This document shows positions 12,583 through 20,089 of a DNA stretch of 37,947 nucleotides, one piece after another; within the stretch, counting starts at the first letter, position 1, and each line of letters opens with the position of its first letter. This DNA comes from Microcaldota archaeon (GTDB taxonomy: Archaea > Micrarchaeota > Micrarchaeia > Burarchaeales > JAKAKT01): positions 1 through 37,947 of the forward strand of contig JAKAKT010000023.1 in assembly GCA_021813385.1 (NCBI GenBank), in the 5' to 3' direction. The notes below the pieces were generated by a model. It saw nothing but the letters and a program-made list of their open reading frames with translations. It was not told where the DNA came from and did no database searches. Both the position numbers and the translations under genes were made by a program.

Positions 12583-14454
12583 TCACATTGTGCTCGGGGT
12601 CGGGTCCCTGGTCTTGTTTGCAAGATAATACGCTAGGGCGTCCTTTGCTTTAAGCACACGTTCGCTGCTCCGCCTCTCCTCCTTTGTGACGTTCTGATGG
12701 GTGAAGTACCTTTCGAGAATCGCAAGACAGTGGCCCTGGTCCGGGTCGTTCACTCCGCTCATCTGAGCAAGGACTTTCAAGAAATCATCCGGCTTCTCGA
12801 ATTTCAGTCTAACGGGCGCGATGTGCTTGTTCGCTTCCAGATTCCGTAACGCATACGCAAGGTCAGCCAAGTTCTCGCCCTCATTCATCCCTCCTCTTAT
12901 GAAAAAGTTGTAAAGCAGAGCAGTCGCTTTCCCAGCGTACTCGTTATACTCCAGTATCTTCGTAGGATTCGAAAAATCTTCCGTTGTCTCGAAAATCCGG
13001 CCCCTCATGAGCCGCATCATATTTAAAAGCGGGAGAGGAGAGTGCAGGTCCTCGCTGTAAGGAACGTCCGGCTTTGCGTACTGAGCCGCATCGAACTTCT
13101 TTTTCGGGTCAACTTCAGTATCCGGTTGCAAGTACGCGATTACACCAGGATGAGTCATAAGGCACCCGCTTCTTGCAAAAAATTCCATCCTGCCCCAAGT
13201 GGACACTATATCGCTTTCCTTAGCGCCCATGAACTCGACTTCGCCAATCATGCCCATGAATTTTCTCCCGTTCACCTCTTGGAACTTGGCGCCAATTCCC
13301 CCGTCCTTTTCGCTTTTTTCTGCTTCTTTCGCATATTTATCGCATAAGCTGTAAGCAGCAACCAGAAGCATCGTGGCTATCTTCGACCGCTGGCTTTCGT
13401 CAGTAATTGCAAGGTGCGAGCCATACAGCACGTTCATCTCCTTATTCGCCAAGAATGAGCCGTCGAATGCCCCGACAATCTCTCCCCTGTTGTTCTTGAT
13501 ATAAATACTGATGAATCGGTTATATTCCAAATCATTTGTCCTGACCACTTGCCCACTTTGAGAATCGTACTTCCAAGCTCCAGAGTATACTTTTCCAGCC
13601 GCCATCTCTTTTATTGCGTCCATGGTCATCGTATAACCATCGAGCTCGTTGGTGGCAAATGTTCTTGTAAGAAGCGAGTATGCCCTGAAGAAATCCGGTT
13701 CAGCCGGACTTTCCACGGCGTAAACCCTAAGAGACTTATTATTAATCAAAACCTGTTTCCCGTCAACTCCGTCCGGGAAGAATTGCTCCACCACACCAAC
13801 AGTTTTATTCCGAACCCACGCATCCAACTGCCTTTTGCCTTCAATTATCCTTCCAGCCTTCATAGTTGTCTCATCGAGAATTCCCTCTATCCTCTCGGTT
13901 CTAACAGCATTATCCGTTATCCTTACTGCGTCTGTTAATCTTCTTTCAACATCCTTTATCTGAAGCGAAACAACCTCCCAATAAGCAGCAGCATGGTCTC
14001 TTGAATATGCTGACAGAGTTTCTATCCTCTCTTTCTTCATCGCAACGATAGCTTCCAACATTGCAGCGGCTTTGTCTTTCAAACTTTTTTCACTTTGAAT
14101 GACGGCAGGTTTGAGCAGTTCCTCAAGATTCGTAGTTGAAAGCCGTCCGTCTTCAAACTGGCGAGAACGGAATTTTCTCGTTGTCTCTAAAACTGGCGTC
14201 GAAGTTCTGTCCCTGCGTTGCATCGTAGCAACCCCGGCTGCAGCCATAATCACTCCCTCCAATTCTGCGTCGACTTGCTTTTTCTTCACTTGCATCTTGT
14301 AAACCTGGAAAATTGCGAGCAGCGGGTTGTCAAGCGATGCGGCAATCTCCGGGTAATCGTCCAAGGTTCTCTTCACGAGTTCAAGGTTTTCTTTCGGAAG
14401 GCTTTCAATCGAAACCTCGCCCAGGATTTTACCTATCTTTGCAAGATTTTTCAT
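12583..14454 (-). CDS. Large hypothetical protein; possible GNAT-like middle region
   Basis: 623-aa ORF from MKNLAKIGKILGEV, clean frame. FISIYIKNNRGEIVGAFDGSFLANKEMNVLYGSHLAITDESQRSKIATMLLVAAY is only loosely acyltransferase-like. Confidence 0.8.
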   Translation of the reverse strand: MKNLAKIGKILGEVSIESLPKENLELVKRTLDDYPEIAASLDNPLLAIFQVYKMQVKKKQVDAELEGVIMAAAGVATMQRRDRTSTPVLETTRKFRSRQFEDGRLSTTNLEELLKPAVIQSEKSLKDKAAAMLEAIVAMKKERIETLSAYSRDHAAAYWEVVSLQIKDVERRLTDAVRITDNAVRTERIEGILDETTMKAGRIIEGKRQLDAWVRNKTVGVVEQFFPDGVDGKQVLINNKSLRVYAVESPAEPDFFRAYSLLTRTFATNELDGYTMTMDAIKEMAAGKVYSGAWKYDSQSGQVVRTNDLEYNRFISIYIKNNRGEIVGAFDGSFLANKEMNVLYGSHLAITDESQRSKIATMLLVAAYSLCDKYAKEAEKSEKDGGIGAKFQEVNGRKFMGMIGEVEFMGAKESDIVSTWGRMEFFARSGCLMTHPGVIAYLQPDTEVDPKKKFDAAQYAKPDVPYSEDLHSPLPLLNMMRLMRGRIFETTEDFSNPTKILEYNEYAGKATALLYNFFIRGGMNEGENLADLAYALRNLEANKHIAPVRLKFEKPDDFLKVLAQMSGVNDPDQGHCLAILERYFTHQNVTKEERRSSERVLKAKDALAYYLANKTRDPTPSTM

Positions 14455-14565
14455 AGCCTTTATTTTGTGTTTTAAGGTATTTATCCCTATCGACAGAATA
14501 AGCAAAATATTATCAATCTTCTAATATATAAACATTCGCTTTTAGAGTATTTCAGCGAGTTGCCC

Positions 14566-15204
14566 CTATTTCGCCTTCGCGTTCATTTTTTTCTTGAGCA
14601 TCTTGAGCGTGAAGAACCCTTCCCTCTCCATCTCGTCGAGCCTCATCGAGATGTAACCGGCCTGGCCCTTGAGCCTCGGCACCACGACATACTCGAGGGC
14701 GTTGACCCTTCTTTTCGTGGTCTCAATTTCTCTCAGCAAATTCCTGATTGCGTTCTCGGTCTTTGCTATCTCCATTATCGTCGTGAGCGAGGCCTCGAAA
14801 GAGCTTGCGGTCTCGTCTATTTTCGCGGAGCTCCCCGCGAAGCTGTACCCCCTGTCCTGCGCGCCCCTCTTGTCATAGTCCCCCTCGATGTCGGCAATCC
14901 TTACGCCCATCACGTTCTTCACGCTGGTCCTCACATTCGGGACCTTCTTCACCGCGAGCGCCGACTGCTCAATCTCGAAGATGCTGTGGTACGCCTGCGC
15001 AACCCCGAGGGAGCCGAAGGCCGACTTCATCTGCGGGTTGAGCACCGAGCGCAGGTCCTTCGCCCTTTTCAGGATTGAGAAGAACTCGAGCACGAGCACG
15101 TCCCTCTTCTGCTTGAGGAGCTTGTGCCCCTTGCCAGCTAGCCTTATGCGGCCCTTTATGTTGATGAGCTCCATTCGCGTCGGCTTTACAGGTTCTTCGA
15201 CCAT
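14566..15204 (-). CDS. atpD: A-type ATP synthase subunit D
   Basis: VKPTRMELINIKGRIRLAGKGHKLLKQKRDVLVLEFF; position after atpB. Confidence 0.95.
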   Translation of the reverse strand: MVEEPVKPTRMELINIKGRIRLAGKGHKLLKQKRDVLVLEFFSILKRAKDLRSVLNPQMKSAFGSLGVAQAYHSIFEIEQSALAVKKVPNVRTSVKNVMGVRIADIEGDYDKRGAQDRGYSFAGSSAKIDETASSFEASLTTIMEIAKTENAIRNLLREIETTKRRVNALEYVVVPRLKGQAGYISMRLDEMEREGFFTLKMLKKKMNAKAK

Positions 15205-15242
15205 TAGCAATCCCTCGAAATTTTCTCCCTCTACATCCGCTT

Positions 15243-15356
15243 AGCAGCGCCACAGGCCGCGCGCAGACTGGCTCGCCCGAGCGCCGTCAGTCTGCGGTCT
15301 GCCTCCGAAGGCAGACCAGGCACCCGAGTGCCTGCGCCATTGGCTTTGGCGCTGCT
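15243..15356. repeat. Composite structured element: 10-bp outer inverted repeat enclosing three abutting perfect hairpins
   Basis: Outer AGCAGCGCCA (15243-15252)/TGGCGCTGCT (15347-15356). Inner CGCAGACTG...CAGTCTGCG (15262-15296), GTCTGCCT-CCGA-AGGCAGAC (15297-15316), CAGGCAC-CCGA-GTGCCTG (15317-15334). Confidence 0.9.
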
Positions 15357-15366
15357 CGTTTGTCAA

Positions 15367-16755
15367 CTATTCTTTCCTGTACTTCTTCCCATATTTCTCG
15401 ATGAACTCCTTCTTTATCCTCTTCAGTTCAGTCTCAGGCAGGGCGGAAAGCAACCTCCATCCAGTCTCGAGCGTTGTCTCGATGCTCCTGTCCTCGTACT
15501 TGCCCTGGGCAATGAACTCCTTTTCGAAAGAGTCGGCGAATTTAAGGTATTTCTTGTCAGTCGGGGTCAGCGCCTCTTCTCCCACCACGGCGGACAGCGC
15601 TCTCAAGTCCCTCCCTTCTGCATACGCGGCATAGAGCTGGTCAGCGACTCCCCTGTGGTCCTCCCTGGTCTTTCCCTTCCCAATACCCAGGTTCATAAGC
15701 CTCGAAAGGCACGGCAGCACATCAATTGGCGGATAAATCCCCTTCCTGTGGAGCTCCCTGGAAACCACAATCTGCCCTTCGGTGATATAACCGGTCAAGT
15801 CAGGAATCGGGTGGGTGATATCGTCACCAGGCATCGAGAGAATCGAGAACTGCGTAATCGTTCCTTTCTTCCCCTTTATGCAGCCGGCCCGCTCGTAAAT
15901 AGAAGCAAGGTCAGTGTACATGTAACCCGGGTACCCTCTTCTCCCGGGAATCTCCTCCCTCGCGCTCGCCACTTCACGAAGCGCCTCGCAATAATTAGTC
16001 ATATCAGTCAGAATCACAAGCACATGCATGTCTTTTTCGAATGCCAAATACTCGGCAGTGGTGAGCGCCATCCTCGGGGTAATCAATCGCTCGACAGATG
16101 GGTCGTTCGCAAGGTTCAGGAACAGAACAGCCCTCCCAAGAGCCCCGGTCTTCTCGAAGTCCCTCATGAAGAAGCCTGCCTCCTCGTGGGTGATTCCCAT
16201 GGCAGCGAACACGACAGCGAAGTTCTCCGAGCTTCCGAGCACTTTCGCCTGCCTCGCAATCTGCACCGCAATATCGTTGTGAGGCAATCCCGAGCCCGAG
16301 AAAATCGGGAGCTTCTGCCCCCGAACAAGGGTGTTCATGCAGTCAATGGCAGATATCCCAGTCTGGACGAAGTCGCTCGGCTTCTGCCTCGAATACGGGT
16401 TAATCGAGCCTCCATTAACGTCGAGTCTCTGCTCGCCGACAATCGGCGGGCCGTTGTCCCTGGGCTCGCCTAGCCCGGTAAATACCCTCCCGAGCATCTC
16501 CTCGGAAACCCCGAGCTTGATTGTCTCGCCAAGGAAGCGGACGCTCGTCTCGTGCGCATCAAGGCCGGCAGTAGCCCCGAATATCTGGATGACCGCCTTT
16601 CCCTTCGAAGTATCGAGCACCTGCCCCTTCGTCTTCTCACCCGAAGGGAGCGTAATCTCAACCAATTCATTGTAAGCAACGTTGCCGACGTTCTCCACGA
16701 AGAGTAGAGGCCCGGCGACCTCGGTTACGGTCTTGTATTCCTTAATGCCCATCAC
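15367..16755 (-). CDS. atpB: A-type ATP synthase subunit B
   Basis: [82 protein letters not shown]. Confidence 0.97.
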
Positions 16756-18578: not shown

Positions 18579-18926
18579 TTATTTCGCAATGTCAAATCCC
18601 AGCGCCCTCTTCATCAATTCGCCGAGCGACTCCTCCTCCGGCAATTCGCCCTGGCTGTCCGGTATCTCGACAACGACTGGCTTCGTGGTCTTCTCGATTC
18701 TCCTCTTCATCCTCCAGTCGAAGCCCTGGACAGCTCGCCTGTTTATTATTATGATGCCGACATCCTCGCGTTCGAGCAGTTTCGCGACAGTCCCTTCGCA
18801 GTCCTTCCCTTCTGCGCTATAAGTTTCCTGCACTCCTGCGAGCCTGAACCCGGTTATCGTTGAAGGGTAGCCCACGACAACAATCTTGTGTGGCAGCTCG
18901 TTTGAATTTTCAGTTTTCTCAGCCAT
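18579..18926 (-). CDS. atpF: A-type ATP synthase subunit F
   Basis: KIVVVGYPSTITGFRLAGVQ...VGIIIINRRA...KPVVVEIPDSQGELP; operon position. Confidence 0.93.
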   Translation of the reverse strand: MAEKTENSNELPHKIVVVGYPSTITGFRLAGVQETYSAEGKDCEGTVAKLLEREDVGIIIINRRAVQGFDWRMKRRIEKTTKPVVVEIPDSQGELPEEESLGELMKRALGFDIAK

Positions 18927-19006
18927 GCTTATCCCACTCTCGCTCTCCCGCGTTCATTTCCGTTTTTCCCATCCCCATGCCGTTCTCCGTAATCCCCCGG
19001 AGCCTT

Positions 19007-20089
19007 CTATCCCGCAATCACCAGCATCCCTTTCAATTTCTCTTCGGGAATCCCGAACTCTGCTGCGCTCAATATCTTCCTGATGTTCCCGATTTCAGCA
19101 TTCTTCAGGTATACGTAGCCCACGAGTGCGCCCACCGAGAGCATCGACCTCCTGAGCGCCTTCACGCCTTTCTGGGCAACCCAATTCTCCAGGTGGGTCT
19201 CGAAGTGGACAAGCGACCTGTCCGTCTTGTATGATTCGAAAGCCTCCGTAAGGTCATAATGCCGGCTCAGCTTCCTAACCGCCTCTTCAGTGGATTTGGT
19301 TTCAGCAATCTTCACGAGCTCCCTCTTGCTTATGCTTCCCCCGTCCAGGAGAAGCTTTTCGATGGTTTCGGTTGGAATCTGCTCTCTTCTTGCCCTGATC
19401 CCGAGCATAATGTTTTTTGCGTCAATCTCGGCCTTCACGAGAGAAAGTACGGTCCCGCCATCCCTGCCGACTCCCTTTACCTTCGAGGCCAATTCCTTGT
19501 AGTACACCCTGTCGAGTTCATTCATTAGGGGAGACAAATCTCCCTTCTTTACTTGGTTCTCCCAGGACTCTTTCGGAGGGCAGAACTCGCACCTCTTTAG
19601 GAATCCGACGACGCTCTCGAGGTCGGAGCCCGCAAGCCTCTTCAGCTCGTCCTCCCCAATTTCGCCTGCAGGAACTAGGAGCGACTCTATTTTTTCCGTA
19701 GAGTAGCCCATCGACTTCCCGAGCAGTATCGTCTTGAGGTTGTGCACATCCCAGCGCCTGAGGAAAGCGAGCACAGTCCCCCTGCCGCTCTCTGGGGTTA
19801 TCCTGATGAGCTTGCGGTAAGTCCGGGCGGCATTCTTCCCCAGCGCTACACGAACGAGGTCCACTCCGGAAAATTTCAGGGATAGCGCAACGAGGTCCTG
19901 CTTGAAATGCGTCCTCTCGAGCATCTCGATGATTTCAGGAACGCTCTTTACCCGGGCCATCTCCTCGAATTGGGCCCGCGTCAAGAGGTGGGTCCTCATG
20001 GCCTTCACTCTTGCGTTTGAATACCCGAAGGCTATCGGTGTTTGCGAGAGAATCCCACCTGTTGCCAATTCCCGTAGTTTCCCAATCAT
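19007..20089 (-). CDS. atpC: A-type ATP synthase subunit C
   Basis: YSNARVKAMRTHLLTRAQFEEMARVKSVPEIIEMLERT; ENWVAQKGVKALRRSMLSVGALVGYVYLKNAEIGNIRKI. Confidence 0.94.
   Translation of the reverse strand: MIGKLRELATGGILSQTPIAFGYSNARVKAMRTHLLTRAQFEEMARVKSVPEIIEMLERTHFKQDLVALSLKFSGVDLVRVALGKNAARTYRKLIRITPESGRGTVLAFLRRWDVHNLKTILLGKSMGYSTEKIESLLVPAGEIGEDELKRLAGSDLESVVGFLKRCEFCPPKESWENQVKKGDLSPLMNELDRVYYKELASKVKGVGRDGGTVLSLVKAEIDAKNIMLGIRARREQIPTETIEKLLLDGGSISKRELVKIAETKSTEEAVRKLSRHYDLTEAFESYKTDRSLVHFETHLENWVAQKGVKALRRSMLSVGALVGYVYLKNAEIGNIRKILSAAEFGIPEEKLKGMLVIAG

Follow-up and report, generated by a model that had tools for sequence, protein, structure and literature searches.

In the stretch of DNA analysed here (the window: all 37,947 nucleotides of contig JAKAKT010000023.1, from an archaeon of the probable Micrarchaeota, a placement based on its nearest AtpB records, which bear the label Micrarchaeota or similar ones), an intergenic element of 114 nt (positions 15243-15356) lies inside the minus-strand operon for the archaeal A-type ATP synthase. 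The gene upstream of it is atpB (15367-16755, minus strand), which encodes A-type ATP synthase subunit B and matches Pfam PF00006 and PF22919, and the gene downstream is atpD (14566-15204, minus strand; Pfam PF01813), with an ATG start at about 15204. The two genes are separated by 162 nt, with 10 nt between the atpB stop codon and the edge of the element. A GAGGGA motif resembling a ribosome-binding site for atpD occupies 15211-15216, outside the element, and the end of atpB and the start of atpD, this site included, are undamaged.

The element is closed by an outer stem of 10 perfect base pairs, in which the left arm (AGCAGCGCCA, 15243-15252) is complementary to the right arm (TGGCGCTGCT, 15347-15356); this helix 1 covaries in the family of copies described below. 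Inside the outer stem, two short stems lead to the junction, 15256-15258 with 15342-15344 and 15259-15261 with 15335-15337. Their left side (15256-15261) is GCC plus GCG, and the corresponding helix 2 is 98-100% paired in the family. Their right side (15335-15344) reads GCC-AATG-GCG on the sense strand and includes a bulge at 15338-15341, of a conserved GCCAAYNR type found in most family copies. Enclosed by these stems, three hairpins adjoin without linkers to give a four-way junction, numbered here in the family orientation, whose sense is the minus strand. Hairpin 3 (15262-15296) has a 9-bp stem (15262-15270/15288-15296) and an interior, CTGACGGC/GCGAG, common to the window copy and other copies in its own genome; hairpin 2 (15297-15316; 8 bp, loop CCGA at 15305-15308) carries in its arm GGTCTGCC the strongest resemblance to those copies; hairpin 1 (15317-15334; 7 bp, loop CCGA at 15324-15327) is highly variable in sequence between copies. 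The hairpin borders have a one-base ambiguity, since C15317 pairs with either G15296 or G15334. The minimum free energy of the fold is -81.1 kcal/mol on the plus strand (z -6.74) and -76.1 kcal/mol on the minus strand (z -4.79), values equalled by none of 200 shuffles in either case. Inspection and folding thus bear out the original prediction as to the position of the element, its 10-bp outer repeat and its three linker-free hairpins.

DNA similarity alone revealed three further convincing places in the host genome (G000). A first covariance model was built from four copies, whose alignment was forced by editing two rows and by changing or padding the other two by hand; it served for searching only and recovered copies beyond the similarity matches. 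A second model, built from 16 unedited copies, detected the element at about 13 host-genome sites, with doubt over the two or three weakest, together with about 17-19 copies in G002 and several each in G001, G004, G103, G112 and G194. The family amounts to about 45-48 copies in seven genomes, a patchy distribution among the 295 genomes of the phylum. When 60 relatives were searched by sequence alone, copies appeared in the host only, the covariance model being needed for the others, and a tight pattern of the interior motif matched the window copy only. No match was obtained by distant BLAST against plasmids and phages, nor to the element in Rfam at gathering and relaxed thresholds. The loci of the copies are unrelated to one another, and the element occurs in either orientation with respect to genes, often between them; by rough open reading frame (ORF) calls, those in tandem-gene spacers are mostly antisense. 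Many of the apparent overlaps with ORFs are probably spurious in this GC-rich DNA, and gene context was excluded from the statistics.

Inspection of the flanks showed the sequences GGCTCTGTAGAA and TTCTACAGAGCC outside many of the cores, and a pattern search located pairs of them 162-319 bp apart in G103, G002, G004 and G000, with zero or one match per genome in a reversed control and no match in viral contigs. These pairs are terminal inverted repeats (TIRs), present in 13 elements, some with mutated ends, and complete TIR-bearing members account for about a quarter of the copies. Tested together for flanking target-site duplications (TSDs) of 8-9 bp, the 13 elements reached a summed score of 87, whereas permutation gave a mean of 44 and no score as good in 5000 trials; exact duplications include GATAAATCT and AGTTTTCGA (9/9 each), GAGAACAA and GTTGCTTT (8/8 each) and also CATACTAC. 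Complete members span 145 to about 345 bp. Those intact on single contigs measure 145-319 bp, the longest open frame in G103 has 87 codons, and the member of about 345 bp, also in G103, is split over two contig ends and flanked by TCACTTTTC. The family is accordingly short, non-coding and multicopy, as expected of miniature inverted-repeat transposable elements (MITEs).

We therefore interpret the feature in the window, with a probability of roughly 0.82, as belonging to a family of miniature transposons, mobile palindromes that are dispersed and non-coding and whose cloverleaf core sets three abutting hairpins on a stem with a bulge. The enzyme that inserted the complete members, bounded by the observed GGCTCTGTAGAA/TTCTACAGAGCC ends and 8-9-bp duplications, would have acted in trans. 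The window copy consists of the core alone, its ends presumably lost or absent. It landed between atpB and atpD and is tolerated there, which is probably explained by the separate ribosome-binding site of atpD and by the lack of a uridine tract that would turn the fold into a terminator; in a test for intrinsic terminators no U-tract was found after the stem, where the sense strand reads GCUGCUAAGCGGAUGUAGAGG.

Many palindromic copies, often intergenic, are also what would be expected of REP/REPIN-type sequences moved by a RAYT (Y1) transposase. TIRs together with 8-9-bp TSDs are not the mode of Y1 transposition, however, and the host genome lacks PF01797 while control genomes were positive, so that we consider this origin the most improbable of those weighed here.

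Between the atpB stop and the PTRMEL motif of AtpD there are 23-66 nt in most relatives in which the genes are adjacent, and 183 nt in the window, or 69 nt once the element is subtracted. The few relatives with longer spacers (103-322 nt, or an additional gene) contain nothing related to the element there. By sequence comparison, the window element is an insertion relative to its relatives, most of which have a short, element-free spacer. Downstream of atpD, a 640-aa open frame (12583-14505, minus strand) has no Pfam or NCBIfam match. In G112, which belongs to another family, a cloverleaf copy with extra hairpins occupies its own atpB-atpD spacer in gene-sense orientation (L144, C22:7313-7448). 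The simplest reading is an independent insertion, because the G112 family mates examined have no element there.

The sense orientation of the window element, its very stable fold and the separate sense-oriented element in the same spacer of G112 might favour an intercistronic RNA kept by selection, which would set subunit stoichiometry by stabilising or attenuating the atp transcript at the A3B3-to-D1 step. Nevertheless, one shared spacer is near chance for about 48 copies in seven genomes; this coincidence appears unremarkable by a rough count of copy pairs, not a formal test, although site preference or benefit retains a slight probability. The element-free spacers of most relatives and of the G112 family mates examined, the unrelated neighbours of the other copies, the mostly antisense placement, by rough ORF calls, of those in tandem-gene spacers, and the lack of an RNA-type wobble signature (see below) likewise speak against such a role, which we regard as improbable. 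Hence, while the proposal that the element controls subunit stoichiometry is left unsupported by its unrelated loci, both orientations, near-equal G.T and A.C counts and absence from Rfam, the other suggestion of the original prediction, a palindromic repeat insertion, agrees with the copies dispersed in the host and in six further genomes, with the TIRs and TSDs seen in a quarter of these copies, and with the lack of the insert in most relatives. A mobile role was to lose support if the element proved single-copy and related genomes carried unrelated, unstructured sequence; the searches by similarity and covariance model failed to refute mobility.

The arms of the core differ in sequence between copies yet stay almost perfectly paired. 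The 16 training copies have 96.4% of cells paired and double changes at 31 of 37 pairs (0/500 shuffles). For 28 copies held out from model building, pairing stands at 95.7%, with double compensatory changes at 35 of 37 pairs, against 27-49% pairing with slid partners, although these percentages are inflated by model-fitted alignments that lean towards structure. So many double changes are hard to obtain from model fitting alone. Over all 44 copies (1524 cells), 94.2% of cells are Watson-Crick, G.T accounts for 27 (1.8%) and A.C for 20 (1.3%); in the window copy 35 of 36 pairs are Watson-Crick. Read from the opposite strand, a G.T pair becomes A.C, and selection on an RNA would let the former stand but not the latter. 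Because the two are about equal, and the mean fold energies of sense and antisense strands are too (-61.7 and -61.8), the palindrome has probably been kept, or has arisen, as DNA and not as one RNA strand. These data bear equally on a dispersed family of structured non-coding RNA genes, expressed and functional in trans, for which the strong covariation and the conserved GCCAAYNR bulge could be taken as evidence. The balance of G.T and A.C, the equal folding of both strands, the large variation in arm number and length, the TIR and TSD flanks, the patchy distribution and the lack of an Rfam match make that reading very improbable, even more so than a role in subunit stoichiometry.

Under the miniature-transposon reading, the arms would be rewritten at the DNA level with the palindromes kept near-perfect, most likely through correction in which one arm of a hairpin serves as template for the other, and whole hairpin modules would also be swapped and inserted in nested fashion. 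Arm number and length vary widely between copies. Two extra hairpins stand on one side in G000 C41, G001 C101, G002 C12c, G004 C7b and G112, and hairpins are inserted within or between arms in G001 C67 and G103 C24, the inserted pieces in G103 being dispersed hairpin families themselves. A host-genome copy, L131 (G000 C77:8756-8919), closely resembles the C62 copy but has a hairpin-forming insert of about 50 bp in its third hairpin.

Two such hairpin families of G103 were recorded in their own right. An element of about 95 nt (TATAGCAAACCACGAAAGTAATGCAAC...CTCAGCGTGGTTTGCTA plus GCCGCATTTTTTGCGGC) occurs on L228 (C2) at 1181-1276 and 18917-19008, at C30:43195, C36:58349, C43:3933, C42:12186 and C14:36492, and nested in C24:24960-25278; it has a conserved asymmetric interior (CGAAAGT / ACCTCAGCG) and is RNA-like, with no Rfam match. 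A double-hairpin element, ATTGGAATTTGCAAATTCCAAT-GC-GGACAAATTTTTGCGAAAATTTGTCC, has covarying arms and about ten places, including C10:2568, C2:36914, C24:14687, C28:24246, C30:21424, C33:9510 and C46:24202, and a relative of it is nested inside a large cloverleaf element. Near the cloverleaf element on G103 C8, L182 (519-752, minus strand) matches archaeal RNase P RNA at 81.7 bits, just below the gathering score of 84.

Several observations weigh against our interpretation. The window copy has neither a TIR, none being present within 110 nt, nor a TSD, and TIR-driven mobility is shown for the family and not for this copy; the atpB stop is conserved 10 nt from the element edge, and therefore no full-length element is possible there. 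About three quarters of the model-found copies likewise have no TIR or TSD, TSD length is inconsistent (8 bp in some copies, 9 in others), and the alignments carry the lean towards structure mentioned above. No transposase with the family TIRs was found, the whole 1.48 Mb G103 assembly included, an absence made weak by incomplete assemblies; a scan of that assembly for an element of 0.6-4 kb with these TIRs gave none, and the elements with such ends there are all MITE-sized. The IS5-like (PF01609) transposases of G000, G001 and G002 were rejected as drivers, as the ends beside the genes do not match.

Among other candidates, a 1624-bp TIR pair on G103 C30 joined a genuine 3' end to a 10/12 match that arose by chance, and no IS6 (DDE_Tnp_IS240) transposase occurs in the seven genomes, control genomes being positive, just as the search for a Y1 driver had given none in the host. 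The IS5-like transposases are single-copy (L194 871-2091, G000 C35; L193 838-2127, G001 C52; L195 880-2115, G002 C12). Their N-terminal regions are Cys-rich, terminal repeats are not obvious, and the two scanned fell just below the cut-off of NCBIfam NF033579.

The share of Watson-Crick pairs is comparable in TIR-bearing (96.3%) and TIR-less copies (93.3%), and a core without its ends is therefore not simply in decay. A different, rather unlikely possibility is that the cloverleaf core itself is the unit of mobility or maintenance, a DNA recognised by its structure, as cruciform or folded single strand, that persists and perhaps moves without TIRs while hairpin-templated repair and the nested insertion of other hairpin families rewrite its arms.

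Like prokaryotic MITEs such as Coxiella QMITE2 (review PMC10969869), the family is short, non-coding and multicopy, with TIRs, direct repeats (7-9 bp in those MITEs) and stable folds. Unlike those elements, which are typically AT-rich, it has a nested, GC-rich cloverleaf core whose arms covary, the majority of its copies consist of the core alone, and no partner insertion sequence was found. Mobile palindromes whose hairpin modules merge and nest are also known as the GC clusters of yeast mitochondria (PMC4478555), where modules are shuffled as well, and as the mitochondrial hairpin elements of fungi and sponges (PMC2800124), whereas the present elements measure 100-345 bp, reside in archaeal chromosomes and have a conserved junction. 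With REPINs (PMC3116915) they share dispersed palindromic units, but the termini differ and no Y1/RAYT gene was found in the host genome.

As far as could be searched, this mobile-element family of the probable Micrarchaeota has no earlier description. With dozens of diverged copies, near-perfect arms and no wobble asymmetry, it provides a clean natural example of DNA-level compensatory evolution. Because such elements could pass RNA-discovery screens, strong covariation alone is no proof of a functional RNA.
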